From contig NZ_CP109078.1 in NCBI RefSeq assembly GCF_035917455.1, positions 5,998,001-6,062,000 on the forward strand: DNA of 64,000 nucleotides, written 5' to 3'. Shown here in pieces: positions 39,975-57,544 of the stretch. Within the stretch, counting starts at the first letter, position 1. Each line of letters opens with the position of its first letter. The notes beneath the pieces were generated by a model. That model searched no databases. It was given only the letters and a program-made list of their open reading frames with translations, and had not been told where the DNA came from. Made by a program: the position numbers and the translations under genes. The stretch is from Micromonospora sp. NBC_01796. Its GTDB lineage: Bacteria > Actinomycetota > Actinomycetes > Mycobacteriales > Micromonosporaceae.

Positions 39975-40110
39975 GGTCGCACCCGCCTTCCCTCATCCGA
40001 CTCCATGCTCCCAGAACAGTATGTATGATGACCTGCATAGTTACAAGTGCTTGGCAAGAATTCCAGGAGCCCGGGCGCCGCCAGGGCCACCGGATCGGAG
40101 AGGACCGCGC

Positions 40111-41065: not shown

Positions 41066-42547
41066 TCAGCCCAGCAGTTGACGCAACTGGTACTTGAGCA
41101 CCTTGCCGGTGCCGCCCCGGGGCAGCACGTCCAGCCGGTGGATCCGTTTCGGCACCTGGTGCGGCTCGAGCCGCTCGGCCAGGAACGCCGTGAGTGCCGC
41201 CTTGTCCAGCGACTCGTCCGCGGCGACGACCGCGGTGACGATCTGCCCGAGTTCGGCGTCGGGTAGCCCGATGACACTCGCCTCGCGTACCGCGGGGTAG
41301 TCGTAGACCGCCGCCTCGACCTCCAGTGACGACACGAGCCTGCCCCCGGTGGTGATGACATCGGTCATCCGGTCGAACAGGAACAGCTCACCGTCGGCCG
41401 TGGCACGTCCGAGGTCACGGGTACGGGTCCAACCGCCGGCGTGTACCTGGGCGTTGAGCGTCTCGTCGAGGTACAGCCGTTTCGGCGCCTCGCAGCGCAG
41501 CCACACCTCACCGAGCTCGCCGGGCGGCACTGGCTCCCCCTGCTCGTCCACCACCCGCATCTCGGTGCCGCGACCGGGACGCCCCACCCACATCGGGCGG
41601 TCCGGGTCCACGTTGCCCAGCATGATCGCCGGCACCGCCTCGGACTGCGCGTACGCGTTGGCGATCGTCGCGTTGGGCATAGCAGCCAGCAGGTCGCGGG
41701 CGATGCGGGGCGGCATGATCGCCGAGGCGTTGCCGATGGTCTTGACCGTGCTGAGGTCGTACCGGTCCTGCGGGCGGATGGCGGCCAGCCGGATCGCGGT
41801 CCAGGGCGTCAGGATGAGCGTCGCGCAGCCGTACGCGGCGAGCAACCGCGCGATTTCCTCCGGATCGTCCGGCGAGCACACGATCAGTGGCGAGGGCGTC
41901 GTGGTGGCGAGCACGGCGACGGTCGTCGCGCTCGACGTGGTGCCCAGCGGCATGGGCGCGAGCAACGGCGCGGGGTCCACGAGCTGCCCGAGCGCGGCCG
42001 ACCCCCGGCCGTAGGTCAGGTTGCCGTGCGGGTTGGTGAACGGCTTCGCCAGTCCGGTGGTGCCGGACGTGTAGAGGATGTCGGAGATGTCCTCGGGCGC
42101 CACGCCGGTGTCGATGGGGCCGGTGTCGCCGCCGTCCAGCTCCGCCACCGTCACCGACCAGCGCCCGGCGGCATCCGGCCACGGCGGCAGCCCGGAGCCG
42201 TGAATCACCCCGACCACCTCGCACTGGTCGAAGCGCCGGTGCAACTCAGCCGTGGACAGGGTGTTGTTGACGTGGACCGCGGTCGCACCGGCCTTGAGCA
42301 CACCGAGGTACGCGGCGGCGTAGTCGATCCAGTCGTCGCCGCCGAAGAGCAACGCCACCCTGGCCCCACGGCCGCTGCCGCCGAGCCGCTCCAGGATCCC
42401 CCGGGCGACGGCGTTGGACCGGCGGTCCCACCGCTCATAGGTCACCGTCGTCTTGCCCCGGACGTTGATCGCCTCCTGCTCCGGCATGAGACCGGCGCGG
42501 TGCCGGAGCAGGTCGGGTACGACGACCGCGGACGTTGGCACACTCAT
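41066..42547 (-). CDS. acyl-CoA synthetase/AMP-forming ligase
   Basis: Adenylate-forming ligase of 493 aa. The P-loop-like motif is ILYTSGTTGLAKPF, the A8-type hinge region is FLFDRMTDVITTGGRLVSS, and the C-terminal catalytic Lys is in LPRGGTGKVLKYQL. It probably activates a carboxylic acid as acyl-AMP and passes it to CoA or an ACP. It is the second gene of the HMGS operon (22-nt gap; ribosome site GAGGAG). In this trans-AT cluster it may supply the starter unit to the first ACP of PKS 1, which has no loading KS. The substrate cannot be read. Confidence 0.88.
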   Translation of the reverse strand: MSVPTSAVVVPDLLRHRAGLMPEQEAINVRGKTTVTYERWDRRSNAVARGILERLGGSGRGARVALLFGGDDWIDYAAAYLGVLKAGATAVHVNNTLSTAELHRRFDQCEVVGVIHGSGLPPWPDAAGRWSVTVAELDGGDTGPIDTGVAPEDISDILYTSGTTGLAKPFTNPHGNLTYGRGSAALGQLVDPAPLLAPMPLGTTSSATTVAVLATTTPSPLIVCSPDDPEEIARLLAAYGCATLILTPWTAIRLAAIRPQDRYDLSTVKTIGNASAIMPPRIARDLLAAMPNATIANAYAQSEAVPAIMLGNVDPDRPMWVGRPGRGTEMRVVDEQGEPVPPGELGEVWLRCEAPKRLYLDETLNAQVHAGGWTRTRDLGRATADGELFLFDRMTDVITTGGRLVSSLEVEAAVYDYPAVREASVIGLPDAELGQIVTAVVAADESLDKAALTAFLAERLEPHQVPKRIHRLDVLPRGGTGKVLKYQLRQLLG

Positions 42548-42569: not shown

Positions 42570-43811
42570 TCAGCTCCACCGGTACACGCGGTGGAAGTCC
42601 TCGATCCTGTCGAGCAGCAGCAGTTCCCGGCCGGCCAGATGACTGTCCAGGACGGACTGGTACGGACCGGTGTCCAGGACCGCGTCGCGGACGCCGAACG
42701 CCCGGTCGGCCGTGTGCCGGTTGAGCTCGTCGTACTCCGCGACCGTCAGCTCACGCCGGGCGGCCACCGCCTTGGCGAGTGGCCGGGCCCCGAGCCGGGC
42801 GGCGGCCCGCTCCGTGACCACTCCGCTGAAGAACTCGGACCCGCAGCCGGAGCCGTAGGAGAACAGCCCGATGCGCCGTGCCACGGAGAAGTCGGCGTGG
42901 TCGATCAGCGAGCACAGCGCGAGGTACAGCGAGCCGGAGTACAGGTTGCCGATCTGGCTGGTGTACGCGAGCGACGGTGCCACCCGTGCCTCGAAGTCCG
43001 CGCCGATGCTGGCCGGGGACATGCCCTTGGTCTTGCGCAGCAGCGTCCGGTGGGCCCCCTTGACCATGCCGGCGAAGGGGATGTGGAACAGGAGATGGTC
43101 GAAGGTGGTGACGATGTCGGCTCCGGCGACGCGGTCCCGGTAGGCGGCGAAGCACTCCTCGAGGCAGCTGAGGTAGGCCAGGAGGGACAGGTCCGAGTTG
43201 ACCACGTCGACGTCGGGCCGGGGGCGCAGCGTGTCCATGACCTCCTTGGTGTGGTACCCGCTGGCACCGAGGTCGAGGCGCAGGACGTCGGGGGAGCGGC
43301 TCACCAGCATCGCGACCGCACCCGCTCCCTCGGACGGCTCGTAGTAGCTGCCGGCGGCGGCGATGCCGGCGATGTCGGTGGCGACCACCAGCGCACGCGC
43401 GTCCGGGATGGGACTCGCGGCGATGATCGCAGCCGCGCTCTGCAGCGCCGCGGTGCCGCCGTAGCAGGCGTGCTTGACCTCGAACGACCGGCAGCGCGGC
43501 GACAGACCGAGGTGGTCGTGGACGTACGTGCTGATGGGCTTGCCGAAGTCCAACCCCGACTCGGTCGCGACCACGACCAGCTCGATCGCCGCCCGCTGCG
43601 CCGGGGTCAGCGCGTCGACCAGTGGCCGGGCCGCGTTGACCGCGTGGGTGACCTGGTCCTCGCAGGGCAGGCTCACCGACCGGCGGTCCATCATCAGGTT
43701 CGCCAGCCGTGACGGGTCCAGGCCGCGTGCCTCGAACAGCGCCCGTACGTCGACGGACGCGCTGCCTGCGTAGACATGAAGATCCTCGATGCCGATGGAT
43801 GTGGTGACCAT
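42570..43811 (-). CDS. HMG-CoA synthase-like beta-branching enzyme
   Basis: HMGS homologue of the polyketide beta-branching type, 413 aa. Catalytic residues are in place: Glu84 (VATESGLD), Cys116 (HACYGGT) and His243 (FHIPFAGM). It would add an acetyl-derived carbanion from a donor ACP to a beta-ketoacyl-ACP, giving an HMG-like branch. The ATG at 43811 is preferred because GAGGGAG lies 9 nt upstream; ATGs at 43820 and 43832 sit on or before that site. It is first gene of the operon with the CoA ligase. An FNR-like palindrome sits 71 bp upstream of its start. It works with the ECH at 49804 and the embedded ECH in PKS 2. Confidence 0.93.
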   Translation of the reverse strand: MVTTSIGIEDLHVYAGSASVDVRALFEARGLDPSRLANLMMDRRSVSLPCEDQVTHAVNAARPLVDALTPAQRAAIELVVVATESGLDFGKPISTYVHDHLGLSPRCRSFEVKHACYGGTAALQSAAAIIAASPIPDARALVVATDIAGIAAAGSYYEPSEGAGAVAMLVSRSPDVLRLDLGASGYHTKEVMDTLRPRPDVDVVNSDLSLLAYLSCLEECFAAYRDRVAGADIVTTFDHLLFHIPFAGMVKGAHRTLLRKTKGMSPASIGADFEARVAPSLAYTSQIGNLYSGSLYLALCSLIDHADFSVARRIGLFSYGSGCGSEFFSGVVTERAAARLGARPLAKAVAARRELTVAEYDELNRHTADRAFGVRDAVLDTGPYQSVLDSHLAGRELLLLDRIEDFHRVYRWS

Positions 43812-43846
43812 CGTTGTCATCTCCCTCGCCATCGCGGTCTCTGACG

Positions 43847-43889
43847 GTTCTACGGTCGTCCGGGCGGCCGGGTCTGCTCATAGTTGAGC
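43847..43889 (-). promoter_or_regulatory. Crp/Fnr-type operator and promoter of the HMGS operon
   Basis: TGCTCA-TAGT-TGAGC (43875-43889) is a palindrome with a 4-nt spacer. Its centre is 30.5 bp from a minus-strand -10-like TAGAAC (43852-43847). The same palindrome and the same TAGAAC occur in front of the DUF6039-like/ECH/AT-ER operon. Confidence 0.75.
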
Positions 43890-43925
43890 GCCGGGGGTGC
43901 GTCGGGCCGGTTAGGATGCCGGGTC

Positions 43926-44465
43926 ATGCAGAGGTATGTCGCATTTCTTCGGGCAGTGAATATCGGCGGCGAGAGCTCGATGGTGATGGCGGACCTGAAG
44001 CAGGTCTTCGTCTCCTGCGGGTTCGACGGCGTGGCGACGTACATCCAGAGCGGCAACGTCGTTTTCGGCTCCCCGGCGGACGACGAGGCGGCCATCCTTG
44101 CCGAGATCCATCGAGGCATCAAGGACCGGTGGGGCAAGGACGTGCCGGTTCTGCTGCGCAGCCTGCCCGAGCTCGACGCCATGATCGCCGCCAACCCGTA
44201 CCTCGGCGAAAACTCGGACTACACGAAGCTGCTGGTCACATTGCTGACGCACGATCCCGGCGCGGACAAGCAGGACGCGCTCGCGTCGCCGGCCGGCGAG
44301 ACGGGCACGGTGGCGCTGGTCGGCCGGGACGTGTTCGTGCACGTCCCGGACGGGTACGGGCGGAGCAAGCTGAGCAACGCCTTCGTGGAGCGCAGAACCG
44401 GCGTCGTCGGGACGACCCGCAACTGGCGCTCGGTGCTGAAGCTGCGCGACATGGCGGCGGGCTGA
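43926..44465 (+). CDS. DUF1697 family protein
   Basis: A 179-aa cytosolic protein of the DUF1697 family, start MQRYVAFLRAVNIGG at 43926. The family motif NIGG and the later YIQSGNVVF are typical. The function is unknown, and the family is widespread outside biosynthetic clusters, so this gene is probably a passenger in the cluster. It is divergent from HMGS and convergent with the antiporter gene, 2 bp apart. Confidence 0.88.
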   Translation: MQRYVAFLRAVNIGGESSMVMADLKQVFVSCGFDGVATYIQSGNVVFGSPADDEAAILAEIHRGIKDRWGKDVPVLLRSLPELDAMIAANPYLGENSDYTKLLVTLLTHDPGADKQDALASPAGETGTVALVGRDVFVHVPDGYGRSKLSNAFVERRTGVVGTTRNWRSVLKLRDMAAG

Positions 44466-44467
44466 CC

Positions 44468-45766
44468 TCATCCTCGCGGTCCCGGTCCGGCCCGGTCCGC
44501 ACCGACGCCCGCGGTCGCCTTCTCGACCCGGCCCACCAGGGACAGCAGCGGACCGGTGAGCACCGTCGTGACCAGCGCCATGACGAGCAGCGCGAGGAAC
44601 AGCGGCGGACTCAGGATGCCGGCCTGGAAGCCGACCTGCAGCACGATCAGCTCGGTGAGCCCACGCGTGTTGAGCAGGATGCCGATCCGTACGGCGAGAG
44701 CGGGGGAGCTGCCGCCGAGCCGGGCGCCGAGGTACCCACCGCCGATTTTGCCGGCGACGGCGAGCCCCAGCACCACGAGAACCAGAGACCACGGCGTGGT
44801 ACCGATGGCGCCGGTCAGCACGGTGAGCCCGGTGTTGACGAAAAAGACCGGCAGCAGCCAGCCGCCGAGCCGTGACACGGTGGCGGTGGGTACGTCCCAC
44901 GGTTCGCCGAGCGGGATCGCCAGGCCGACCAGGATCGCACCGAACACCGCCGTCAGTCCCAGGTGGTGCACGCCGAAGCCGACCGCGAGCGCGAGGACGC
45001 CCAGGGTCACCGTGCTCGCGGCGGGCCAGCGGGCGCACCACACCGCCGCCCTGCCACGACTCAGTGCCCACCTGATCCCGGCGGCGAGCAGCAGCGCGCC
45101 CGCGAGCACCGCCATCGCGTCGCGGAACGTGGCCGCGTCCCCGGCGCCGAGCGCGACGGCCAGTGACAGCAGCAGCCAGCCCACGATGTCGACCGCGACC
45201 GCGGCGGCCAGGGCCAGGCTCCCCGCGGTGGACTCCTCCAGGCCGCGTTCCTTCAGCAGCCTCGCCAGCACCGGCACCGCGGTGATCGACAGCGTCACCG
45301 CGACGCACAGGACGAAGGCCGGCAGCGGTGCGTCACCGCGTACGGTGGCGTCGCCGGACATGAGTACCCAGAGGGCGACGAGCGCGCCGCACGCCAGCGC
45401 CGGGACGAGCGCGCCGGCGGTTACCCACGCCAGCCGGCGGTCGTTGCGCGCCGGCCCGACCCGCAGTTCGCGGGCGAGGCTGACCAGGAACAGCACCAGG
45501 GCACCTTCGGCGACCAGGCGCAGGAGCGCCCGTACGTCGTCGGGCAGCACGGTCGCGAGGACCCCGCGCCCGGCCAGCGCGACGAGTACCGGGCCGACGA
45601 GCAGGCCGGCGACGATCTCGCCGATCACCGGCGGCTGGCGCAGCAGCCGTGCGGCGGCCCGTCCGGCGGCGGCAACGAGGAGCAGGGCGACGATAAGCAC
45701 GGCGCCGTGCAGCAGTCCCAGGATCCCGCCCATCTCAGCGACCGCTTCGCTGCGGGCCGCCCGCAT
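44468..45766 (-). CDS. cation/proton antiporter (CPA2/KefB-like)
   Basis: Membrane antiporter of 432 aa with about 12-13 helices. RQPPVIGEIVAGLLVGPVL near residue 44 is the CPA2 signature, and the VDIVGWLLLSLAV helix carries the conserved Asp. No RCK/TrkA-N domain follows. It lies 24 bp behind the Crp/Fnr gene on the same strand, so it is probably co-transcribed. Antiporters of this kind recur in polyketide clusters, possibly for self-protection or ion balance; export of the product is not shown. An ATG at 45733 is an alternative start. Confidence 0.85.
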   Translation of the reverse strand: MRAARSEAVAEMGGILGLLHGAVLIVALLLVAAAGRAAARLLRQPPVIGEIVAGLLVGPVLVALAGRGVLATVLPDDVRALLRLVAEGALVLFLVSLARELRVGPARNDRRLAWVTAGALVPALACGALVALWVLMSGDATVRGDAPLPAFVLCVAVTLSITAVPVLARLLKERGLEESTAGSLALAAAVAVDIVGWLLLSLAVALGAGDAATFRDAMAVLAGALLLAAGIRWALSRGRAAVWCARWPAASTVTLGVLALAVGFGVHHLGLTAVFGAILVGLAIPLGEPWDVPTATVSRLGGWLLPVFFVNTGLTVLTGAIGTTPWSLVLVVLGLAVAGKIGGGYLGARLGGSSPALAVRIGILLNTRGLTELIVLQVGFQAGILSPPLFLALLVMALVTTVLTGPLLSLVGRVEKATAGVGADRAGPGPRG

Positions 45767-45790
45767 CCGGTGGCGCGGCGACGCTGGCGC

Positions 45791-46750
45791 TCATGCGGTC
45801 AGCCCGTGCTCGCCGTGGAGATAGCGGCCGGCGCCGGTGGCCGAGCGGGTCGTGCCGGTGCCCCAGAGGCCGAGTTCCCTCTGCCCGCGCTCCACGTACT
45901 CGGTGAGGGCCGCCTCGTTGATCAGGAGGTATCCGCCGGGGAGCTGGTCGACCAGCTTCGCCTTGCGGAAGTGCTTGAGGAACAAGCCGACCCGGGACCG
46001 GGTGGTGCCGACCATGCTCGCCAGCTCCTCCTGGGTGATCTTCGCATCGATCTGCATGCCGACGTTCAGCTGGCGCCCCACCTTGCGGGCGAGCCGCAGC
46101 AGGGTGGCGGCCAGCCGGTGCTCGCTGTCCATGGTGACCAGCTGCGTGATCGTCTGCTGCTGGTCGAGGAGCTTGGCCATCAGGAACCGGGTGAAGTACC
46201 AGTTGAGGTGATCGTCGTTGATGAGCATGTTGAAGAGCTTCGCGGAGTTGATCCGCCGGATGACGCTGTCCTTCATGGCCGTCGCCGTGTCGTGCCGCGG
46301 TGCACCGAGCAGTCCCAACTCGCCGAACATGTCGCCCCGGGTGTGGATTGACAGGAGGCACTGCTTGCCGTCCGCCGACGACGCGGTGGTCTTGAACTGG
46401 CCGACCTCCACGAGGTACATGCGCAGGTCCTGGTCGCCGGAGTTGTAGATGGCCCCGCCTCTGGGCACATGCGTGCGGACGGCGAACGTCGGGTCGTCGC
46501 GGATCATCTGGTGCAGCTGGTTGCGCAAGTCATTGGTAGCGCCGGCGGTTCGCAAGAAGTCCTCCTCGCGCCCGAATTCGGACAGGCGGGTGCGTTGTCC
46601 GATTTCTGCTCGTCCGATTTGTGGCGAAGGGTGGGCGGCTGTGGTGAATGCAGCCGGAACCCTTGCCTGTAGTCTGTGTGCCGGACTGATCGTCTTCTGT
46701 TCCATTGTGAGCAGACAATGGTTTTGTCCGCTATGAGTTTGACAATCCAC
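45791..46750 (-). CDS. Crp/Fnr-family transcriptional regulator, probable pathway activator
   Basis: A 319-aa regulator. Residues about 85-195 form the cNMP-binding beta-roll (GGAIYNSGDQDLRMYLVEVG, then GDMFGELGLLGAPRHDT), and about 205-300 the dimer helix and helix-turn-helix (ITQEELASMVGTTRSRVGLF). No Cys cluster like that of FNR is seen. The first 75 residues are an unusual extension; the start is uncertain between GTG 46750 and ATG 46705, neither with a good ribosome site. Leinamycin-type trans-AT clusters carry a regulator of this family. Palindromes TGCTCA-N4-TGAGC near the cluster promoters are its likely sites. Confidence 0.88.
   Translation of the reverse strand: MDCQTHSGQNHCLLTMEQKTISPAHRLQARVPAAFTTAAHPSPQIGRAEIGQRTRLSEFGREEDFLRTAGATNDLRNQLHQMIRDDPTFAVRTHVPRGGAIYNSGDQDLRMYLVEVGQFKTTASSADGKQCLLSIHTRGDMFGELGLLGAPRHDTATAMKDSVIRRINSAKLFNMLINDDHLNWYFTRFLMAKLLDQQQTITQLVTMDSEHRLAATLLRLARKVGRQLNVGMQIDAKITQEELASMVGTTRSRVGLFLKHFRKAKLVDQLPGGYLLINEAALTEYVERGQRELGLWGTGTTRSATGAGRYLHGEHGLTA
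46699..46713. promoter_or_regulatory. degenerate Crp/Fnr-type site at the regulator start
   Basis: GTTCC-ATTG-TGAGCA has one perfect half-site (TGAGCA) and one arm with two mismatches to GCTCA. It overlaps the candidate ATG of the regulator and could mediate weak autoregulation. Confidence 0.3.
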
Positions 46751-47647
46751 CCGAGGACACGGCGTATCGATGGGGCATCAGTCTGCTCCGCACCTGTCCT
46801 GTGCAGCAATTTCGTGCAATGTTCATCCGCCCGGATGGGCGGCGACGTGCCGTCCTGCTAACCGGCAGGCGGAATCGCTCGGCGCTGCATGTGATTCTCA
46901 TCGCCCGCTGTGCGGACGGGGCCAACTGGGTGCGTGTGCACCCGCCCGTGGCTCGGCTGCTTCGGTGTCCAGATAGTTGTTCCGGCAATAGTTGTGCGCG
47001 ATTCATAGGGCGGCGCAGGCTGTGTCGCGACCAGGCAACTCCCTCGTTTCGGTGGCGTTTCGAGCAGTTGTCGGGAAAGCCTCCAGTGCCTCTGCATCGC
47101 CCGGATGAAGAGCACTGGATCGGGCATCCATGTCGAGTCCATGATGGGGGATTCGCCACTAATTCGTGGAGTATGGTTCACTTGAAGCGAACGCATTCGA
47201 ACGACGCCCTTCGACGGAGTGGACAGCGGACGGGCCGGTCGGTGATTCGTGTGCGCATGCGTATGCGGATGTCGGGAGGTGGGCCGACATCGTTGTGGCG
47301 CTGCAGAATCGTACGGTCATCAATCTGAACCGGCGTCATGCGCGTAAAACATGTTAACCAATCCAGCGGCACGTGTCCATGTAGCCAATGTCGTGGAACG
47401 GACTTATTGGGCCAACCGTCGTGCAGGTTATTCCTGTCGATTGTCTGATAGCGGACGCATTGGACTAACTATTCAGCGGATTCCTGGTCGGGTAGGTATT
47501 GATCATGATCGGTCTGGATGATCTTCAGGCGGTGGTCCCGGTCCACCGTCCGTGGCGCGGTCGCCGAGCTCTTCGCGAACGACGCAAAATGAACAGATCA
47601 GGGTCATGTGACACCAGGTGAATGACCGACCATTGTGCCGCCGGGGC
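46751..47647. other. 897-bp gap without a recognisable gene
   Basis: The stretch lies between the regulator gene and the end of the AT-ER gene. It is visibly more AT-rich than its surroundings. Short frames are present on both strands, but none has a ribosome site with a plausible protein. It contains a perfect GATCATGATC palindrome (47501-47510). It may hold the regulator's promoter, a small RNA or decayed sequence; I cannot decide. Confidence 0.5.
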
Positions 47648-49798
47648 TCAGCGGGGCTGCGACATCAGTCGTTCGGCAACCGCGTCCGCGTGCCTGGTAC
47701 GCCAGTCAGCGAGCGGCTCCGAGCCGACGAGCCGGTTGAACGCCCCGATGTCGGCGGACGCGGGCACCCGGTAGTTCAGCCGCTGGCCGGGCGTACCGCG
47801 CAACGCCGCCGCGGTGGCCTCCCGGCAGTACGCGGCGAACACCAGGGCCAGACCGTGCTTCGCATCGCGACCCACCGCACCGAGGCTCTCGCGTACCACC
47901 TCCAGCGGGCGCCCGAAGTGGGTGCGTTCCAGTGCCACCCGCTCCTGCGCGCTGAGATCCTCCAGCCGATCGTGCCGCAGATACAGCCGGTACAGCTCTT
48001 CGGCGCGCGCGGCGAACAGCGTGCCCTTGTGCGCCACCCGGGACCGGGCGCCCAGCTCGAACAGTTCGGGGTCGGGCGCGTCCCGGGTGTCGGTGACGTC
48101 GAGCGTGCCGAGCAGATCCTTCGCCGCGTCCGAGGTGGCGGCCTCGGGTGTGCACTGGTTGACGGTCGTCGTGACGACGAAGTCGGCACCGAGCGCGAAG
48201 GCGGCCGCGACGGCGGCCGGCGTCCCCACCCCCGCCACACCGATCCGCACCGTCGGGGCCTCGCGGTCGCGCTGGGCGACCAGGGCGGGTACGAGCGCGA
48301 GCGCGTCCCCCTCGGCGGCCAGGTCGGTGGCGACGGGAAGACGCGCCGCCGACGCGGCGGCACTGGCGTCGAGGAGCCCCTCGTCGACCAGGGCCCGCAC
48401 CACCGCCGGATCGGGCGGGCGCAGGAACCGGGTCGCGGTGGCCGGGTCGGTGATCCGGACCAGGACCCGCCGGAGTCCGTCGGCGTACCGGAACCGGACG
48501 AGCTGCGGCGACACCGCACCGAGCGGCCCGGAGACCTCCACCTGGCGCACGTCGTGGACGAGATACAGGTCGCAGAGGGAACGCTCGTCCCGGCCGCCCG
48601 GCCACGCCATCCCGTACCGGGGGACGTCACGCAGCTCGACCAGGGCGGCCCGGATCGCGGCGGTGTCCAGCCCGCCCGCGCCGAAGAACCCGAGCAGCCC
48701 GGCGTCGGACAGCCGCCGCAGCAGGGCGGGTGAGGTGACACCGTACGGCAACGACCCGGCCAGGCACGCGTACCGGACGTCGTATTCCGCGCGCAGTGCC
48801 GCCGAACCCCCCACCCGAGTCCCCGTCGGGTTCGGCGCGACCGCCGGTCGCGAGGGTGTCGGGACGGGAGAGGTGTCGGCAGGTGCGGAACCGGTGGGAA
48901 CGCGCGGGGGCGCCACGATCGGCACGGGCGGTGCCGTCGGCGGGACATCGGGAGCGGGGAGTCTCGTGGCGGCCCGGCGCCACATCTTGGTGAGGACGTC
49001 ACCCGGCCCGACCTCGACCGGCTCCGTCACACCGGCCCGGGCCAGCCGGCACATGGTGTCCCACCACCGCACCGGCTCGACGAAGTGTCGCAGCAGCGTC
49101 GCGGGGAGGTCCGCCGGGAGGTGGGGGGCGGCGGTCACGTTGCTCAGCACCGGGATCACCGGCGGCGCGAACCGGACGTCGCGCAGGACCGACGCGAAGG
49201 CGTCCGCGGTGGCGGACATGAGACGCGAGTGCGCCGGAACGCTCACCGCCAACGGTACGCACCGGCCCGTACCGTGGCGGCGCACGGCGTCGATGACCGC
49301 CCGGACCCCGTCCGCGCTGCCCGCGACGACGAACTGGTCGGGCAGGTTGTGGTTGGCGAGGTCGACGTCGCCGATCTCGGCCAGCAGTGCGGTCACCCGG
49401 GACAGCGGCAGCCCGAGCACGGCCACCATGCCGCCACCGGTGACCTCGCCCATCAGCTCGCCCCGCCGGACCACGAGCCGCAACGCGGTCTCGAAGTCCA
49501 GGCAGCCCGCGACGTGCAGCGCCGCGTACTCGCCGAGGCTGTGTCCGGCCAGCACGTCGGGCGCCGGATGGCCGTCCGCCCGCGCTGCGCGGGCGGCCAG
49601 GACGCTGACGAGGAACACCGCCGGCTGCACGTACCGGGTCTGGCCGAGGTACTCCCCGCGCTCGTCGCGGCACAACTCGCGCGGGGACACCCCGATGATC
49701 CGACCGGCGGCGGCACACTCGTCGGGGAACCGGTCGAGCAACTCCTCGCCCATACCCGGGCGCTGGGAACCCTGTCCCGGGAAGACCCATGCCCGCAT
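47648..49798 (-). CDS. trans-acting malonyl-CoA acyltransferase fused to PfaD-type enoyl reductase
   Basis: A 716-aa didomain protein. Residues 1-290 are the acyltransferase (WVFPGQGSQRPGMG, nucleophile GHSLGEY with Ser87, catalytic His190 in VPAHSRLM), which would load malonyl units onto the AT-less PKS. A Pro-rich linker (about 290-325) leads to a PfaD/nitropropane-dioxygenase-like domain (about 325-716). In that domain the usual EADSxGHTDN flavin/catalytic segment reads EGDALALVPAL, so the reductase may be inactive. The ATG at 49798 lies 5 nt after the ECH stop, so translation is coupled. It is third gene of the operon starting at 51473. Confidence 0.92.
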   Translation of the reverse strand: MRAWVFPGQGSQRPGMGEELLDRFPDECAAAGRIIGVSPRELCRDERGEYLGQTRYVQPAVFLVSVLAARAARADGHPAPDVLAGHSLGEYAALHVAGCLDFETALRLVVRRGELMGEVTGGGMVAVLGLPLSRVTALLAEIGDVDLANHNLPDQFVVAGSADGVRAVIDAVRRHGTGRCVPLAVSVPAHSRLMSATADAFASVLRDVRFAPPVIPVLSNVTAAPHLPADLPATLLRHFVEPVRWWDTMCRLARAGVTEPVEVGPGDVLTKMWRRAATRLPAPDVPPTAPPVPIVAPPRVPTGSAPADTSPVPTPSRPAVAPNPTGTRVGGSAALRAEYDVRYACLAGSLPYGVTSPALLRRLSDAGLLGFFGAGGLDTAAIRAALVELRDVPRYGMAWPGGRDERSLCDLYLVHDVRQVEVSGPLGAVSPQLVRFRYADGLRRVLVRITDPATATRFLRPPDPAVVRALVDEGLLDASAAASAARLPVATDLAAEGDALALVPALVAQRDREAPTVRIGVAGVGTPAAVAAAFALGADFVVTTTVNQCTPEAATSDAAKDLLGTLDVTDTRDAPDPELFELGARSRVAHKGTLFAARAEELYRLYLRHDRLEDLSAQERVALERTHFGRPLEVVRESLGAVGRDAKHGLALVFAAYCREATAAALRGTPGQRLNYRVPASADIGAFNRLVGSEPLADWRTRHADAVAERLMSQPR

Positions 49799-49803
49799 GG
49801 CGC

Positions 49804-50595
49804 TCACCGCTCCCACGGGTATCGGCCGAGGGTGACGAAGTCGGTGATCCGCCGACGTACCACCGGCGAGGACATCAACCGACCGAACTCGGCGACGGCG
49901 TGGTCCCGTACGCGCTCGTCAACGGCGGAAAGCCCGCGGAAGTACCGCTTGGCGTCGCCGACGACGACCCCGTCCAGCCGGTTGAGGCGGAACACCAACT
50001 GCCGCAGCACCGTCTCCGGCTGCTCGGTGACCTCGTCGACGAGATGGATGCGGTGCGCCTCCGACGCCGGGACCGCCTGGGTGCTCAGGGTTGCCGCGTA
50101 CGCCTTCTGGAAACCGACCCGACGCACCAGGAACGGCAGCACGCAGCACGGCAGCAGACCCCACAGCGCCTCCGGCAGCGCGAACGTGCTGCGTGCGGTG
50201 GCGTGCGCGAAGTCGCTGGCGGCCACGAGCCCGACCCCGCCGCCGGCGACCTGGCCGTCGACCTGGGCGATCACCACCCGTCCGACGGTGGTGAAGCGTT
50301 CCAACAGGCCGAAGAACGCGGCGCCGCCGTCGGAGGCACCACCGCCGTCGTCGGCGGCACTCTCGAGGTTCATCCCGGTGCTGAACACCCCGTCGCGGCC
50401 CTCCAGCACCACCGCCCGGCACGTGTCGTCGCCCTCGGCCTCGTCGAGCGCCGCGTGCAACTCGCCGAGCACCACGTCGTCGATGGTGTTGCGCCGCTCG
50501 GGCCGGGCCAGGGTGACGCGGAGCAGGCCGGGTTCCCGCCGCAGCTCGATCGTCCGGTATGCCATCGGTTCAGCCCCGCACCGCGACGGGTTCAT
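49804..50595 (-). CDS. trans enoyl-CoA hydratase of the beta-branching set (ECH1-like)
   Basis: Crotonase-fold protein of 263 aa. The oxyanion region is GGGVGLVAASDFAHA, and the segment ALPEALWGLLPCCVLPFLVR followed by RVGFQKAYAATLS closely follows PksH/LnmF-type ECH1 enzymes, which dehydrate the HMGS product. The start overlaps the stop of the preceding gene as ATGA (50595); ATG 50565 (MAYRTIELRREPG) gives the commoner family N-terminus and is an alternative. It is middle gene of the operon that also encodes AT-ER. It works after HMGS and before the ECH2 domain in PKS 2. Confidence 0.9.
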   Translation of the reverse strand: MNPSRCGAEPMAYRTIELRREPGLLRVTLARPERRNTIDDVVLGELHAALDEAEGDDTCRAVVLEGRDGVFSTGMNLESAADDGGGASDGGAAFFGLLERFTTVGRVVIAQVDGQVAGGGVGLVAASDFAHATARSTFALPEALWGLLPCCVLPFLVRRVGFQKAYAATLSTQAVPASEAHRIHLVDEVTEQPETVLRQLVFRLNRLDGVVVGDAKRYFRGLSAVDERVRDHAVAEFGRLMSSPVVRRRITDFVTLGRYPWER

Positions 50596-51473
50596 TCATT
50601 GCTGCTCGGCACCTGCGGTAGCAGCAGCGTGTCGCGGATGCTCGCCTCGATGAACAGCCGGTCCCAGGCCCCGCCGCCCTTCGACTCGTGCAGCCGGCGG
50701 CGCCCGAACACCTCCGTGGCCATCTCCTTGCTGCGTTCCAGTTCGGCGAGCGCCTGGTGGTCCTCGGGGGAGCGCAGGTGGATCAGTTGGAACAGGTGGT
50801 CCTGCTGACCCCACGTCTGCTCGTACAGTGTCGCGGTCACCTTGCCGGCGAGCCGCTCGTTGACGAAGTGCTGCCAGTGGGCCGCGTACATCCGGCCCTC
50901 CTCGCGGTACTCGTACTTGACGTCCGAGGTCCGCATCACGATCGCCCCCGCGGTCGCCGAGTTGAGCTGCAGTTCCGGTGGCTGGTTCAGCTGCGACGTC
51001 GCCGGCGGTACGAACGTCGCCGGCTCCTCGTGGTCGTCGCCCTCCTCGGCCATTCCGTGCTGCGGGACCAGCACGTCCTCGTGCAGGCTGCGGTGGATGA
51101 ACATCCGGTCCCAGTTGCCGCCGCCCTTGTGCGGCAGCCGGTCCTCGTCGGAGATCCGGCGGAACTCCAGGTCGCGGTCGACCATGTTGAGCAGGATGCG
51201 GTAGTCCTGCGGCGACTTGAGATGGATGAACCAGTGCATCCGGTCACGGGCACCGAACGTCTCCTCGAAGGCGAACGAGGTGGCCACGCCCTCCTGCGAG
51301 GTGTTGATGTACTGAAGGAGGTCGACGCTGAACCGGCGCCCCTCCGCGGCGAACTCGTACGCCAGTTGCCCGACCCGGTGCAGGATGAAGCCTGAGTTGA
51401 GACTGTGCAGCACCCGCTCCAGCGGTAGCGACGACTGGTTCAGGGCGCGGTGCGGCACGAGCGTCGTGGTCAT
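50592..51473 (-). CDS. duplicated-domain protein of unknown function (DUF6039-like)
   Basis: A 293-aa soluble protein built from two similar halves (about 26-142 and 170-288). Both contain HLKSPQDYRIL / HLRSPEDHQAL and then GGGNWDRMFIHRSL / GGGAWDRLFIEASI. The repeat looks like a ferredoxin-like barrel half, so the two halves may pair inside one chain. I associate it tentatively with DUF6039, but no activity is known. The ATG at 51473 has GAGGAGGAG upstream. It is first gene of the ECH/AT-ER operon, divergent from the PKS genes, and controlled through the palindrome at 51538-51552. Confidence 0.75.
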   Translation of the reverse strand: MTTTLVPHRALNQSSLPLERVLHSLNSGFILHRVGQLAYEFAAEGRRFSVDLLQYINTSQEGVATSFAFEETFGARDRMHWFIHLKSPQDYRILLNMVDRDLEFRRISDEDRLPHKGGGNWDRMFIHRSLHEDVLVPQHGMAEEGDDHEEPATFVPPATSQLNQPPELQLNSATAGAIVMRTSDVKYEYREEGRMYAAHWQHFVNERLAGKVTATLYEQTWGQQDHLFQLIHLRSPEDHQALAELERSKEMATEVFGRRRLHESKGGGAWDRLFIEASIRDTLLLPQVPSSNE

Positions 51474-51510
51474 CGGTTCGCTCCTCCTCTGATCTCGGTC
51501 TGACGGCTCG

Positions 51511-51552
51511 GTTCTACGCAGCCCGCCACGCCGTGTCTGCTCACGGTTGAGC
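51511..51552 (-). promoter_or_regulatory. Crp/Fnr-type operator and promoter of the AT-ER operon
   Basis: TGCTCA-CGGT-TGAGC (51538-51552) lies 29.5 bp (centre to hexamer) from a minus-strand TAGAAC -10 element (51516-51511). This spacing is that of class II activation by FNR-family proteins. Confidence 0.75.
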
Positions 51553-51573
51553 TACCGACCGAAGCCGTTGGCT

Positions 51574-51616
51574 TGCTCATTGTTGAGCAGGCGGGCGGGG
51601 CGCGGCTGCCTAGCGT
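51574..51616 (+). promoter_or_regulatory. Crp/Fnr-type operator and promoter of the PKS genes
   Basis: TGCTCA-TTGT-TGAGCA (51574-51589), a full palindrome, is centred 29.5 bp before TAGCGT (51611-51616), a -10-like element. The predicted transcript would start near 51623, about 48 nt ahead of the PKS GTG. Confidence 0.75.
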
Positions 51617-51670: not shown

Positions 51671-54600
51671 GTGACGCAACGAACCGTTCGATCCCATGCC
51701 GTTCTCCTCTCGGCGTCCGGCCACGCACAGCTGCGCCGATCCGCCGACCGGCTGCGCGAGCACCTCGCCGTCGCCGGCCGGCGGCCCGACCTCGCGGACG
51801 TGGCGTACACCTCGCAGGTCGGCCGGATGCCGTTGCCGCACCGGCTCGCCGTGCGGTGCGAGGACGTCGACGGGCTCGTCGACGGGCTCACCGCGTTCCT
51901 GCGGGAGGAGACCCGCGACGGTGTCCTGTACGGCGTCGCCGTACCGTCGAACGCGTCGTCCGTTCCCGAGCCGCCGACCGACGCGGACGCCGCCGTGGTG
52001 TGGGTCGCCGGTGGACGGGTCGACTGGCAGCGGTACTGGCCGCAGCCGCGCCCGCGGGTGCCGCTGCCGGGCTATCCGTTCGGATCCGAACCTTCCGTGC
52101 CGCAGCCGGTGGAGGTGGCCGGGTCCGCGTCGCTGGAGGGCTATCTCACCGAGCTGTACGCCACCGTCTCGGGACTGCCGGCCGACGCGGTGGACCTTCG
52201 GGTGCCGCTCGTCGACCAGGGCCTCTCGTCGTACCTCATCACGCTGCTGAATGCCCGGATCGCGGACGATCTCGGTGAGCGGTCCCGGACCCTGTTCTTC
52301 GAGCACCCGTCGCTCGCCGCCGTCGCCGCCGCGCTGGCCGCAGCGGGCCGTACCGCGCCGGGTGAGGCCGCAGGGCCGACCACCGCCCCGCCCCCGGCCA
52401 CCCGCACCGCCGCCTCCGAGGCCGCCACCCACGACGCCCCCACCCACGACGCCCCCACCCGCGAGGCCGCCACCTCCGAGGCCGCTGCCCCGATCCGGTC
52501 GGCGCAGGGGAGTGTCGGCGAGCAGGAGATCGCCGTCATCGGCCTCGCCGGAAGATACCCCGGCTCCCCCGACCTGGAAGCGTTCTGGGACAACCTCGTC
52601 AACGGTCGCGACTGCGTCACCCCGCATCCCGCGCAGCGGGCCCGCCCGGGGTGGCCGACCCACCTGATGGAGGGCGGGTACCTCGACCAGGTCGACTGCT
52701 TCGATCCGCTGTTGTTCGGCATCACCCCCCGCGACGCCGCCCTGATGGACCCGCAGGAGCGGTTGTTCCTCGAGGTGACCTGGGCGGCGCTGGAGGACGC
52801 CGGGTACACCCGCGCCCGGCTGCGGGAGCGGCACCACTCGTCGGTCGCCGTGTACGCCGGTGCGATGTGGAACGAGTACCCGTTGTTCGGGGCCGAGCAG
52901 ACGCTCCTGGGCTCCCCGCAGGACTCCGGCGCGACACTCGGCGGCATCGCCAACCGCGTGTCGTACTTCTTCGACCTGCACGGCCCCAGCCTGACCGTCG
53001 ACACCATGTGCTCCTCGGCGCTCGTCGCGCTCGACCTGGCCGTACGGAGCCTGCGGTACGGCGAGGCCGAGCTGGCGATCACCGGCGGGGTGAGCCTGTC
53101 CCTGCACCCGAACAAGTTCATCCAGCAGCAGCGGATGAAACTCACCGCGAGCGACCGGCGCAGCCGCAGCTTCGGCGCGGGCGGCGACGGTTTCGTGCCG
53201 GCCGAGGGGGTTGGTGCGCTGGTGCTCAAGCCCCTGCACCGCGCGCTCGCCGACGGCGACCCGGTGCACGCGGTGATCCGGGGAACCGCGGTCGTACACG
53301 CCGGCCGGACCAACGGGTACATCGTGCCGAGCCCGGTCGCGCAGGCCGACGTGGTACGCCGGGCGCTACGCGACGCCCGGACCCGGCCCGACGAGATCGG
53401 CTACGTCGAGGCACACGGGGCGGGCACCGCTCTCGGCGACCCGGTCGAGATCGAGGGGTTGAGCCGCGCGTACCGGGAAGCGGCCGGCGCCGAACTGCCG
53501 CCCGGCGGCATCCCGATCGGGTCGGTGAAGTCGACCATCGGGCACACCGAGGCCGCGGCCGGGATGGCCGGCCTCACCAAGGTGATCCTCCAACTCCGTC
53601 ACGGCACCCTGGCGCCGTCGCTGCACGCCGACGACCTCAACCCGAACATCGCCTGGGACACCGTGCCGTTCCGGGTCCAGCGGCAACGCGCCGAGTGGAG
53701 CGGATCCCGGGTCGCGGGCATCAGCTCGTTCGGCGCCGGTGGGACCATCGCGCACGCGGTCGTCGCCGCACCGCCGGCCCGCGCCCGGGACACGGCACCG
53801 GCGGGCCCACAGCTCGTCGTCCTGTCGGCCTACGACGAGAACCGCCTCGACGAGGTCGTCCGGCGGCTCGTCGCACACCTGCGCCGGGACCGGGAGCCGA
53901 CCTCCGGACAGCTCATCGACGCACTGCGCCGGATCGCGGCGGGCACGCTCGCCGAGCCGGCCGCCGACCACGCCGCCGCCCTGCTCGCAGGCGGCGGACC
54001 GGCACTCGCCGACATCGCCCACACCCTGCAGGTCGGCCGGGAACCGTTGCGGCAGCGGCTCGCGGTGGTTGCCGAGGACGTCGACACGCTGTGCGAACGG
54101 CTCACCCGGTACCGTGCCGATCCCGCCGTGCTGCTCGGCCGGGCGCCCGCCGCCCCGGACCCGGCCGCGGTCCTGCCCGCCGGAGCCACGCTCACCGACC
54201 TCGGCCGCCACTGGGTCACGGGCGGGTCCGTCGACTGGACGGCGCTCCACGGGCCGGGCCGGGTCATCGTCGATCTGCCCGCGTACCCGTTCGCCCGCGT
54301 CCGCTGCTGGCTGCCGGAGACCGCGCCGGCCGTCGCGGGTCCGCCCGAGACGCCGCTGTACACCAGGATCTGGCAGCCCGACCCGGGGCCCGACCCGGCC
54401 GGGCACCCGGTGTCGGGCGCGATGCTGTGCGTCGGCGGGAGCCCGGACCTCGTCGCACGGCTCGGCGGTGTCGCCGTGCTCGACCCGGCGGACCTGGCCG
54501 CGGTGCTGGCGCGCAACCCCGACGTGGGCGGCCTTGTCGGACTCCCCGGCGGCATCGGCTGGGAAACCAGGGTACGGGTGCTGCAACGGCTGCTCGCCGA

Positions 54601-57544
54601 ACGTCCCCGTACGCCGTTGCGCGTGCTGGAGGTGGCGGCCGGGGACGTGCGGACGGCCGGGTTCGTCAAGGCCCTCGGCGCCGAGTACACCCGAGTCACC
54701 GCCACCGTCCTGTACACCGACCGACTGTCCGCCGACCATGACGCGCTCGCGGCGCAGGTCCGGGCCGAATGGGGGCGCCCCGATCCGTACGGCGAGGTTC
54801 GCTACGTCGACGGCCGGCGGCACCGGCCGCGGCTGGAGCCCGTGGCGGCCCCCCATGTCCCGCTGCGGTGCGACCCGGCCGGCGCCTACCTGGTGACCGG
54901 CGGCACGCGTGGCATCGGTGCCCTCGTCGCCCGACACCTCACCGACCACGGCGCCCGCGCGATCGCGCTGGTCGGCGTCCGGGAGGCCGCCGGAACCGTC
55001 GACGACCTGCGTGCCCGGGGCGTACGGGTGCTGCTGCACACCGGCGGATTCGACAACATCGACGGGTTCCTCGAACGGGTCCGCGCCGAACTCGGCCCCC
55101 TGCGCGGAGTGGTCCACTGCGCGGGCGTGGAGAGTCAGGGCAGCCCGGCGTTCGTGCACAAGGACCTCGCGGACGTACGTGCGGTCATGGCGCCGAAGCT
55201 CGACGGGTTCGAGTCCCTGGCCCGGCTGCTCGCCGCCGACCGTCTCGACTTCTTCCTGACCTTCTCCTCGGTGTGCGCCACGGTCACCGCGCTGGCCGCC
55301 GGGGTCACCGACTACGCCGCCGCGAACATCGCCGTGGACGAGCTCGTCCGCGCCGAACTGGCCGCGGGTCGTACCGGGTTCCGCTCGGTGGACTGGCCGC
55401 AGTGGGCGCAGACCGGGTCGACCAGTGGCCGCCCGAACCCGTGTGCCCCGGCCGGCATCGCGCCGCTCGACGACGCCGCCGGCCTGCGCGTTCTTGACCG
55501 GGTGCTCGCCCTGCCGACCGGTGCGGTGGTCCTGCCCTGCCCACCGTTGGGCGCCGCCCCCGACCCGGACGCCCTCCTGCGCCTTCGCCCGGCCGAGCCC
55601 GCCCCCGAAGCGGCCACCGAACGTCTTCCCGAGGCGGACGCGCCCGCGCCCGTGCCACCGGCCCCCGTGCCACCGGCCCCCGTGCCACCGGCCCCCGTGC
55701 CACCGGCCCCCGTGCCACCGGCCCCCGTGCCGCCCGTTGCCGTGCCACCCACGCCCGTGACGGCTGTGCCGGGGTGGCTGGTGACGGTCTTCTCGAACGC
55801 GCTCGGCATCCCCGAGCGGGACCTCGACCCGACGATCGAGTTCGGCGACCTCGGCGTCGACTCGGTGCTCCTCGGTGAGCTGCTCGTACGCATCGAGGAG
55901 AGGCTGGGTAGCCACCTCGATCCCGCGACTTTGCTGCTGCACCCGACCCTCGAGCGGCTCACCGCCCATCTCGGGATCCAGGCCCAGCAGTCCGTGGTCC
56001 CGCAGTCCGTGGTCCCGCAGTCCGTGGTCCCGTCGCCTGTGGCGCCGCAGCCTGTGGTGCCGTCAGCCGTGGTGGCGTCGGCTGTGCCGCGGACCGCACC
56101 GGCCTCGGTGCGGACGGCCGAGTCGCCGCGGGCCGGTGTGGACGGGCGGATCGCGGTGATCGGGATGGCCTGCCGGTTCCCCGGCGCCACCGACGTCACA
56201 GGCCTGTGGGACAACCTGCTGCACGGGCGCTGCGCCGTCGCCGAGGTGCCGCGCGAGCGGTGGGACCATCGCCGCTGGTGGTCGCCGGAGCCGGCGCTCG
56301 GTCGCTCGATCAGCAAGTGGGGCGGGTTCGTCGAGGACATCGAGTGGTTCGACCCCGAGTTCTTCGGCATGGGCGACGACGAGGCCCGCTGCCTCGACCC
56401 GGCGATCCGGATGTTCCTGGAGGGCACCGCCGAGTGTTTCGCGGAGGCGGGCTACGAACCGGCCGAGCTGCGGGGCCGACGGGTCGCCGTGGTCGCCGGC
56501 GCCCGACTGTCCGACTACGGCCGGCGGGTACCGGTCCGTGCCGACGTACTGCGGTCCGACCAGAACTTCATCGCCGCCCGCGTCGCGCACCAGTTCGACC
56601 TGCGCGGCCCCAACCTGGTCATCGACAGCGCCTGCTCGTCGTCGCTCCTCGCGGTGCAGGCGGCCTGCCGCAGCCTGCTGGCGGGGGAGTCCGAACTCGC
56701 CGTCGCCGGCGGGGTCGAGGTGCTGCTCGACCAGGAAGCCTATCTCGACCTGAGTGCCGCGCGGGCGCTCTCCCCGACCGGCCGGTGCTGGACGTTCGAC
56801 GAGCGTGCCGACGGGTTCGTGCCCGGTGAGGGCTGCGGCGTGGTCCTGCTCAAACCGCTCGCGGCCGCGCTCGCCGACGGCGATCGGATCCACGCCGTCA
56901 TCGACGGTGTCGCGGTCAACAACGACGGCCACACGATGGGTGTCACCACCCCGAGCCCCGCCGCGCAGGCCGACGTCGTCCGCCAGGCGCTCGCCGCCGC
57001 CGGTCGGTCACCGGGCGACATCACGATGCTGGAGGCCCACGGCACCGGCACGCTCATCGGCGACCCGATCGAACTGCGCGCGCTCAACGAGGTCTTCGGT
57101 GACCAGCCGGCCGGACGGATCGAGATCGGCAGCGTGAAGTCGAACCTCGGCCACCTCCTCAGCGCCGCCGGGATGGCCGGGATGTTGAAGGCGGCGCTCG
57201 CCCTGGAGCACGGCATGATCCCGCCGACGCTGTTCTGCGAGACCCCCAACCCCCGGTTCGACTTCGGCAGCTCGCCGCTGCACCCGACAACCGAAGCGGT
57301 CGCCTGGCCCGCAGGGCGGGAACGCGTCGCCGGGGTCAGCTCCTTCGGGCTCGGTGGCACCAACGCCCACCTCGTCATGAGCGCAGCCCCGCCCGTTGCG
57401 GCCCGCCGCGCGCCGCTGCCCCGCCCGGTGTTCCGCCGCCGGCGGCTGTGGCTTGACGGTGAGGCCGGCGCCCCGCCGCCGGCGCCCACCAGCGAGCCGC
57501 TCACCTCCTCCCTGCTGCACCTGCAGCTCGCGACCCGTGACTGA
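51671..57544 (+). CDS. trans-AT polyketide synthase 1 (flank-ACP / KS-KR-ACP / KS)
   Basis: AT-less type I PKS of 1957 aa. It opens with a KS-type flanking subdomain but no KS (about 5-145), then ACP1 (about 160-235, Ser187 in GLSSYL, where Asp-Ser is usual). KS1 (about 286-700) has Cys447 in DTMCSSAL; the usual HGTGT and GTNAH read HGAGT and GTIAH, with the histidines kept. KR (about 895-1300) has TGGTRGIGA and the active-site Tyr in DYAAAN. ACP2 follows (Ser1398, LGVDSVLL), then KS2 (about 1490-1910, Cys1655, DSACSSSL), where the protein ends; its processing domains are on PKS 2, 25 nt downstream. GTG 51671 is preferred to TTG 51617. Confidence 0.92.
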   Translation: MTQRTVRSHAVLLSASGHAQLRRSADRLREHLAVAGRRPDLADVAYTSQVGRMPLPHRLAVRCEDVDGLVDGLTAFLREETRDGVLYGVAVPSNASSVPEPPTDADAAVVWVAGGRVDWQRYWPQPRPRVPLPGYPFGSEPSVPQPVEVAGSASLEGYLTELYATVSGLPADAVDLRVPLVDQGLSSYLITLLNARIADDLGERSRTLFFEHPSLAAVAAALAAAGRTAPGEAAGPTTAPPPATRTAASEAATHDAPTHDAPTREAATSEAAAPIRSAQGSVGEQEIAVIGLAGRYPGSPDLEAFWDNLVNGRDCVTPHPAQRARPGWPTHLMEGGYLDQVDCFDPLLFGITPRDAALMDPQERLFLEVTWAALEDAGYTRARLRERHHSSVAVYAGAMWNEYPLFGAEQTLLGSPQDSGATLGGIANRVSYFFDLHGPSLTVDTMCSSALVALDLAVRSLRYGEAELAITGGVSLSLHPNKFIQQQRMKLTASDRRSRSFGAGGDGFVPAEGVGALVLKPLHRALADGDPVHAVIRGTAVVHAGRTNGYIVPSPVAQADVVRRALRDARTRPDEIGYVEAHGAGTALGDPVEIEGLSRAYREAAGAELPPGGIPIGSVKSTIGHTEAAAGMAGLTKVILQLRHGTLAPSLHADDLNPNIAWDTVPFRVQRQRAEWSGSRVAGISSFGAGGTIAHAVVAAPPARARDTAPAGPQLVVLSAYDENRLDEVVRRLVAHLRRDREPTSGQLIDALRRIAAGTLAEPAADHAAALLAGGGPALADIAHTLQVGREPLRQRLAVVAEDVDTLCERLTRYRADPAVLLGRAPAAPDPAAVLPAGATLTDLGRHWVTGGSVDWTALHGPGRVIVDLPAYPFARVRCWLPETAPAVAGPPETPLYTRIWQPDPGPDPAGHPVSGAMLCVGGSPDLVARLGGVAVLDPADLAAVLARNPDVGGLVGLPGGIGWETRVRVLQRLLAERPRTPLRVLEVAAGDVRTAGFVKALGAEYTRVTATVLYTDRLSADHDALAAQVRAEWGRPDPYGEVRYVDGRRHRPRLEPVAAPHVPLRCDPAGAYLVTGGTRGIGALVARHLTDHGARAIALVGVREAAGTVDDLRARGVRVLLHTGGFDNIDGFLERVRAELGPLRGVVHCAGVESQGSPAFVHKDLADVRAVMAPKLDGFESLARLLAADRLDFFLTFSSVCATVTALAAGVTDYAAANIAVDELVRAELAAGRTGFRSVDWPQWAQTGSTSGRPNPCAPAGIAPLDDAAGLRVLDRVLALPTGAVVLPCPPLGAAPDPDALLRLRPAEPAPEAATERLPEADAPAPVPPAPVPPAPVPPAPVPPAPVPPAPVPPVAVPPTPVTAVPGWLVTVFSNALGIPERDLDPTIEFGDLGVDSVLLGELLVRIEERLGSHLDPATLLLHPTLERLTAHLGIQAQQSVVPQSVVPQSVVPSPVAPQPVVPSAVVASAVPRTAPASVRTAESPRAGVDGRIAVIGMACRFPGATDVTGLWDNLLHGRCAVAEVPRERWDHRRWWSPEPALGRSISKWGGFVEDIEWFDPEFFGMGDDEARCLDPAIRMFLEGTAECFAEAGYEPAELRGRRVAVVAGARLSDYGRRVPVRADVLRSDQNFIAARVAHQFDLRGPNLVIDSACSSSLLAVQAACRSLLAGESELAVAGGVEVLLDQEAYLDLSAARALSPTGRCWTFDERADGFVPGEGCGVVLLKPLAAALADGDRIHAVIDGVAVNNDGHTMGVTTPSPAAQADVVRQALAAAGRSPGDITMLEAHGTGTLIGDPIELRALNEVFGDQPAGRIEIGSVKSNLGHLLSAAGMAGMLKAALALEHGMIPPTLFCETPNPRFDFGSSPLHPTTEAVAWPAGRERVAGVSSFGLGGTNAHLVMSAAPPVAARRAPLPRPVFRRRRLWLDGEAGAPPPAPTSEPLTSSLLHLQLATRD
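55651..55725 (+). repeat. 15-bp repeat in a Pro-rich PKS linker
   Basis: Five perfect 15-bp units coding for VPPAP, flanked by degenerate units, between the KR and ACP2 of PKS 1. A second short array, three units of CAGTCCGTGGTCCCG, lies at 55988-56032 between ACP2 and KS2. Confidence 0.9.

Follow-up and report, generated by a model that had tools for sequence, protein, structure and literature searches.

The stretch analysed here (the window) comprises 64,000 nucleotides of the 8.56 Mb genome of Micromonospora sp. NBC_01796 (genome positions 5998001-6062000), and its end falls inside a biosynthetic gene cluster which, judged by gene content, extends about 43 kb further. Our subject is an inverted repeat found at promoters of this cluster, together with the Crp/Fnr-type regulator that the cluster encodes. 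A preliminary description of the window had placed TGCTCA-N4-TGAGC at three cluster promoters, and exact matches are indeed present there, at 43875, 51538 and 51574. This 15-bp pattern gives four strand matches in the window (51574 counts on both strands), compared with a mean of 0.02 in shuffled versions of the window, where four matches were reached in 0 of 100 shuffles. The complete symmetric element is 16 bp long, TGCTCA-N4-TGAGCA, and the sites at 43875 and 51538 deviate from it at the final base. In all likelihood, the LnmO-like Crp/Fnr activator of the cluster uses this palindrome as its operator, a class II site at about -41.5/-42.5. The genes and predicted promoter elements concerned are the following.

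41066..42547, minus strand: AMP-dependent ligase, follows HMGS in the operator-1 minus-strand unit
42570..43832, minus strand: HMG-CoA synthase-like (HMGS) gene, first gene of the same unit
43847..43852, minus strand: TAGAAC, predicted -10 of the HMGS unit, 22 nt (N22) from operator 1
43875..43890, no strand: putative operator 1, TGCTCATAGTTGAGCG, between HMGS (minus) and DUF1697 (plus)
43912..43917, plus strand: TAGGAT, predicted -10 of DUF1697, 21 nt (N21) from operator 1
43926..44465, plus strand: DUF1697 gene, divergent from HMGS at operator 1
45791..46750, minus strand: putative LnmO-like Crp/Fnr regulator, 319 amino acids as called
47648..49816, minus strand: acyltransferase-PfaD-like reductase (AT/ER), operator-2 unit
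49804..50595, minus strand: enoyl-CoA hydratase (ECH), operator-2 unit
50592..51473, minus strand: DUF6039 gene, first gene of the operator-2 unit
51511..51516, minus strand: TAGAAC, predicted -10 of the DUF6039 unit, N21 from operator 2
51538..51553, no strand: putative operator 2, TGCTCACGGTTGAGCT, for the DUF6039-ECH-AT/ER unit (minus)
51574..51589, no strand: putative operator 3, TGCTCATTGTTGAGCA, perfect 16-bp palindrome, for the polyketide synthase (PKS) gene (plus)
51611..51616, plus strand: TAGCGT, predicted -10 of the PKS gene, N21 from operator 3
51671..57544, plus strand: PKS gene, behind operator 3

The distances from site centre to hexamer reported earlier, 30.5 bp (TAGAAC, HMGS), 29.5 bp (TAGAAC, DUF6039) and 29.5 bp (TAGCGT, PKS), are correct, and correspond to N22, N21 and N21 past the 16-bp element. 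The sequence said to be common to the first two sites is GTTCTACG, which occurs at both 43847 and 51511 and is complementary to the -10 region CGTAGAAC. Operators 2 and 3 lie 36 bp apart. Operator 1 is two-sided: on the plus strand it is followed at N21 by TAGGAT and, 8 nt beyond that, by the DUF1697 start codon (ATG), which suggests that this transcript is leaderless. The PKS start codon, a GTG, is located 54 nt past its predicted -10. The regulon appears to extend beyond the three promoters named at the outset, with more promoters in and past the window.

For a comparison across genomes, the six closest homologues of the regulator among 101 genomes were aligned with the protein itself, giving a seed set of seven; each of the six relatives has a site with at most one mismatch within about 10 kb. 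A species-genome collection scanned with this alignment yielded at least 78 loci, and more relatives exist. The ingroup consisted of 46 actinobacterial loci (L055-L098, L100 and L114; L080 and L086 seem to be the same stretches as the seed loci L049 and L052) and the outgroup of 31 loci (L101-L113, L115-L132), while the Xenorhabdus locus L099 was kept out of both counts and examined apart. When all inverted repeats were counted without regard to a motif (4096 arms, spacers of 0-10), TGCTCA-N4 came first in the ingroup, with 24 exact sites in 16 loci, and it was not on the outgroup list of the same count. With up to one mismatch allowed, the 16-bp palindrome occurred 81 times in 41 of the 46 ingroup loci, and the outgroup contained one such site, in one of its 31 loci. 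Permuted-arm controls (n=179) gave a mean of 0.9 and a maximum of 11 sites, ten Markov resamplings gave 0-2, and no spacer but 4 yielded more than 5 sites. Forty-six of the 81 sites lie outside called genes, in sequence that makes up 13% of the total. Since the 81 sites represent 69 distinct contexts, they are not one copied promoter. The palindrome co-occurs with this subfamily of regulators.

The distance between the palindrome and a hexamer of the form TANNNT is fixed. Over 162 orientations, the counts of TANNNT were 27 at N21 and 24 at N22, and never above three at the remaining distances between 0 and 69 nt. Counted per site, 50 of the 81 have TANNNT exactly 21 or 22 nt downstream, compared with a mean of 0.32 and a maximum of 4 for 112 slid controls. 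At the 51 promoters the majority site reads C-TGCTCA-RNNN-TGAGCA-G and the majority -10 is TAGCGT. None of the 51 carries a -35-like hexamer (at least 4 of 6 matches), where about 5 would be expected from random positions; such a lack is what one would look for in promoters that need an activator. In the class II arrangement known from CRP and FNR, a symmetric site is located near -41.5/-42.5 and there is no -35 element. The promoters described here have the same layout, with a site centre near -41.5 counted from the predicted -10, a -10 present and a -35 absent. The original proposal of a Crp/Fnr protein activating via a class II site thereby gains strong comparative support: the palindrome is the top-ranking inverted repeat, is found in a single outgroup locus, keeps a fixed spacing and is accompanied by no -35. 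Very probably, it serves as a class II operator across leinamycin-type and related clusters. Single-linkage clustering places the predicted targets in the 46 loci and our own cluster in 13 groups, the largest being DUF6039 (17), P450 (15; Pfam check on one member), AMP-ligase-like (11) and PKS (8).

The open reading frame (ORF) at 45791-46750 does encode a Crp/Fnr protein, as had been proposed: Pfam finds both domains, cNMP_binding (PF00027, 1.8e-15) and HTH_Crp_2 (PF13545, 3.8e-13). By sequence, the same two-domain architecture is found in the solved proteins 7ets, 4byy/4cyd (which we take to be GlxR) and 3d0s (presumably M. tuberculosis CRP). Relatives resemble the protein only from about residue 60-77 onwards, and the real start codon may therefore be downstream of the one called. 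The whole ORF contains three cysteines (3, 12 and 131), the first two in the N-terminal stretch that relatives do not share, and FNR proper has four iron-sulfur cysteines. An FNR-type iron-sulfur sensor was considered and is ruled out by the count and position of these residues. The 5-4-5 symmetry of the palindrome, which had been taken to indicate the FNR family, is not diagnostic, because a CRP site shows the same register when its arms are written as 6 bp (TGTGAT-N4-ATCACA); this register is generic to Crp/Fnr proteins, and that assignment was given up. In cAMP-dependent CRP, cAMP is contacted by two residues of the long helix, T-S or T-N. In our regulator, Q197-Q198 stand opposite the T-N of 4byy in the sequence alignment; Q is found at these positions in 46 and 49 of 52 homologues, and this replacement makes canonical cAMP binding doubtful. 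A cAMP signal has been suggested for leinamycin in one review (PMC6001450); for this regulator family we consider such a signal doubtful. Canonical sensing of either kind, cAMP or iron-sulfur, seems unlikely. Two regulator homologues are present in 6 of the 46 loci (L056, L061, L065, L076, L084 and L087).

The putative recognition helix has the sequence TTRSRVG, where the aligned solved Crp/Fnr proteins have the SRETV- type. In the 52 homologues from the 46 loci, R251, R253, G255, F257, L258 and K259 are invariant, and residue 252 is S or T. In the alignment with 4byy, R251 is conserved, and next to it S, R, G and mostly Y/F/L take the place of E, T, N and K, respectively. In CRP, the arginine equivalent to R251 reads the G of the half-site. 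The changes in the helix would fit a half-site in which TG is kept and the rest is changed. We propose that a homodimer would read (C)TGCTCA-N4-TGAGCA(G) via a TTR[S/T]R[V/I]G recognition helix, with the site centre 29.5 or 30.5 bp before the -10 hexamer (TAGCGT in the majority of the family), i.e. at about -41.5 or -42.5 from the predicted transcription start. The bound activator would then replace the missing -35 element and touch RNA polymerase in the manner of a class II activator. In the window this would switch on the HMGS-ligase, DUF1697, DUF6039-ECH-AT/ER and PKS units, and past the window the NRPS-PKS (nonribosomal peptide synthetase-PKS) gene, a second AT/ER gene, a second DUF6039 gene and perhaps a P450/aminotransferase pair. 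Likeness to the E. coli CRP/FNR class II promoters lies in the dimeric palindrome near -41.5, the -10 present and the -35 absent; the difference lies in the half-site, TGCTCA here versus TGTGAT for CRP and TTGAT for FNR.

LnmO, which is said to go back to Huang et al. 2016 as a positive regulator of leinamycin biosynthesis, would be the closest known system: here too a Crp/Fnr protein, which we propose to be an activator, is found inside a leinamycin-type cluster. From family and cluster context we infer that the regulator is LnmO-like. The parts of two reviews available to us describe LnmO as a positive regulator of the Crp/Fnr type that controls leinamycin biosynthesis in Streptomyces atroolivaceus (PMC7105598, PMC6001450). 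Neither the operator sequence nor its family-wide reach is described in those parts, and the primary LnmO paper may hold a site.

Several observations weigh against this interpretation and have to be considered along with its rivals. No TANNNT at N21 or N22 was found for 31 of the 81 sites, and the two TAGAAC hexamers of the window do not themselves fit the strict TANNNT; TAGAAC or TAGAAA is found again at the DUF6039 promoter of L055, L056 and L058. Five of the 46 loci (L066, L085, L090, L092 and L098) have no site with up to one mismatch; in L090 and L092 a site with two mismatches is present, followed at N21 by TAGCTT or TAGCGT. The perfect palindrome at genome position 6084725, described below, has only AATGCT at N21, on one side. 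The exact 16-bp palindrome is present in 30 of the 101 relatives' genomes, mostly ones without a close homologue, its counts are no guide to whether a genome has such a homologue, and loose composites (up to two mismatches) are found in 97 and 86 of the 101. The palindrome alone is thus not specific, given how widespread exact and loose matches are. This sporadic occurrence is what inverted repeats arising by chance in a GC-rich genome would look like, yet we give hardly any credence to chance: the shuffle, motif-blind, permuted-arm, cross-genome spacing and Markov tests are all contrary to it, as is the lack of TANNNT at 21/22 nt in the five copies of the 15-bp pattern outside the cluster.

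Co-occurrence is not binding, and the palindrome might be bound by another co-inherited regulator, with the Crp/Fnr protein as a passenger. The loci were picked by their Crp/Fnr gene and have other cluster genes in common, co-conservation in the 46 loci was measured for the Crp/Fnr regulator alone, and a TetR-type gene (39369-39974) lies immediately upstream of the cluster. We nevertheless find this improbable, as sites are also present at loci that share few cluster enzymes at the threshold used (L073, L089, L094 and L095) and in Xenorhabdus, and the Crp/Fnr family typically shows two-fold symmetry, this register and a class II position. A touch less probable again is that the Crp/Fnr protein acts at these sites as a repressor, blocking the promoters until a signal frees it. 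Crp/Fnr proteins can repress, and a protein at -41.5 could occlude RNA polymerase. The promoters, however, have no -35-like hexamer, and the site is fixed to 1 bp relative to the -10; moreover, LnmO reportedly acts positively, its overexpression having raised the yield to 300% (PMC7105598). Activation through a class II site remains the interpretation that we favour.

A scan of the whole genome with the 15-bp pattern gave nine distinct places, four of them in the cluster and five outside (5967255, 2712892, 3422172, 3972740 and 8012879). None of the five has TANNNT at 21/22 nt on either strand, and for that reason we read them as chance matches; 5967255 had been considered as a distant cluster site and was dropped on the same ground. 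Composite matches with up to two mismatches in the whole genome were 12 at N21, of which 6 in the cluster, and 11 at N22, of which 5 in the cluster, with two sites in both sets; a control with the reversed pattern gave 5 (N21) and 3 (N22) composites in all. Further candidate operators, the first one in the window and the others past its end (genome positions), are:

46698..46713, minus strand: weak and speculative candidate, TGCTCACAATGGAACA, at the regulator's own start, two mismatches, CAGACT at N21
6084725: perfect palindrome between P450 (minus) and aminotransferase (plus)
6093528: one mismatch, between the NRPS-PKS gene (minus; N22 TAGGTT) and the second AT gene (plus; N22 GACAGT, with the GTG 7 nt after)
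6095785: weaker, two mismatches, N22 TAGCGT before the second DUF6039 gene

A site also precedes a crp gene in two related loci, L091 (with TACGCT) and, as a poorer case, L065 (with TAACGG).

The locus examined apart, L099, belongs to Xenorhabdus budapestensis, a gammaproteobacterium with 37% G+C, and encodes a homologue at about 30% identity, with the same helix, TTRSRVG. It has three sites, each of which stands before a gene start and is followed by TANNNT at N21 or N22:

L099:9854
L099:11632
41261 on the joined contig

Their contexts are a perfect palindrome before crp, a PKS gene (by Pfam) and a large NRPS/PKS-like ORF (by similarity only). The 15-bp pattern occurs at six distinct places in the Xenorhabdus genome, two of them at L099. 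The regulator was found in 1 of 198 sampled genomes of the Xenorhabdus family, namely the query's own. One may imagine, as a possibility that we hold only tentatively, a distinct Crp/Fnr clade whose TTRSRVG helix recognises TGCTCA, a code of its own, and which responds to neither cAMP nor oxygen but perhaps to a thiol, a persulfide or an intermediate of the pathway. Such a clade would travel with trans-AT PKS clusters as a regulator-operator pair, would have crossed between actinobacteria and a gammaproteobacterium, and would work with the -10 hexamers of both.

Past the window, the cluster continues with a 7005-aa PKS ORF ending in PP-binding (three stretches in that piece), LPG_synthase_C, Beta_elim_lyase and an alpha/beta hydrolase. 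We take LPG_synthase_C to be the DUF of a DUF-SH-TE end, probably preceded by two tandem acyl carrier proteins (ACPs). As far as the available parts of the sources go, leinamycin-type assembly lines have eight modules and a terminal module of ACP-ACP-DUF-SH-TE (PMC7618002), and the DUF-SH-TE end is their marker (PMC7618002, PMC8479088). The ORF is followed by an LnmK-type gene (LnmK_N_HDF, 6.6e-88), and because of this PKS end, the LnmK-type gene and the HMGS cassette described below we would call the cluster a member of the leinamycin family. Next come a second HMGS-like gene, an ABC ATPase, a P450 and a class III aminotransferase, then a C-A-PCP-nitroreductase-KS NRPS-PKS, the second DUF6039 gene, and A-PCP, PhyH and KS genes, and at the cluster end an FAD enzyme, a solute-binding protein and a permease. 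The HMGS cassette of the cluster consists of two HMGS-like genes and the ECH gene.

LnmO-type activators are known by name; an operator with a fixed spacing would make the regulon of each cluster readable from sequence. It would also help to mark cluster limits, add the DUF6039 and DUF1697 genes to the pathway, and provide one short site for testing across dozens of mostly unstudied clusters. An altered recognition helix paired with an altered half-site would be a clean case for the Crp/Fnr recognition code.

DUF6039 occurs twice in the cluster (window 50592-51473; genome 6095871-6096812). It is rare, being found in 2 of 396 sampled genomes of the phylum, our own genome included, and no paper naming it was found in the literature searched. 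The 36-37 bp spacing of the DUF6039/PKS operator pair is kept in four clusters, that of the window (51538/51574) and three related ones:

L055: paired operators at 5479/5515
L057: paired operators at 2423/2460
L058: paired operators at 2658/2695

DUF1697 homologues lie directly beside an operator in four related clusters (L055 12614, L056 3240, L057 8156 and L058 8190), with neighbours that differ between these clusters (HMGS, DUF6039, AMP ligase). Given this recurrent position with varied partners, DUF1697 may regularly be part of the regulon. An everted palindrome, TGAGCA-N4-TGCTCA, has six exact sites in 4 of the 31 outgroup loci, possibly by chance or as another operator. In the window, the ORF at 39928-40935 adjoining the cluster fuses a tautomerase region to a SnoaL-like domain, and in the approximately 0.9 kb between the regulator and AT/ER (46751-47647) no gene was kept by the codon-composition gene call. 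At the end of the cluster, genome positions 6102308-6104850 hold the permease and the solute-binding protein (SBP_bac_5); homologues of the latter are present in 8 of the 46 related loci.

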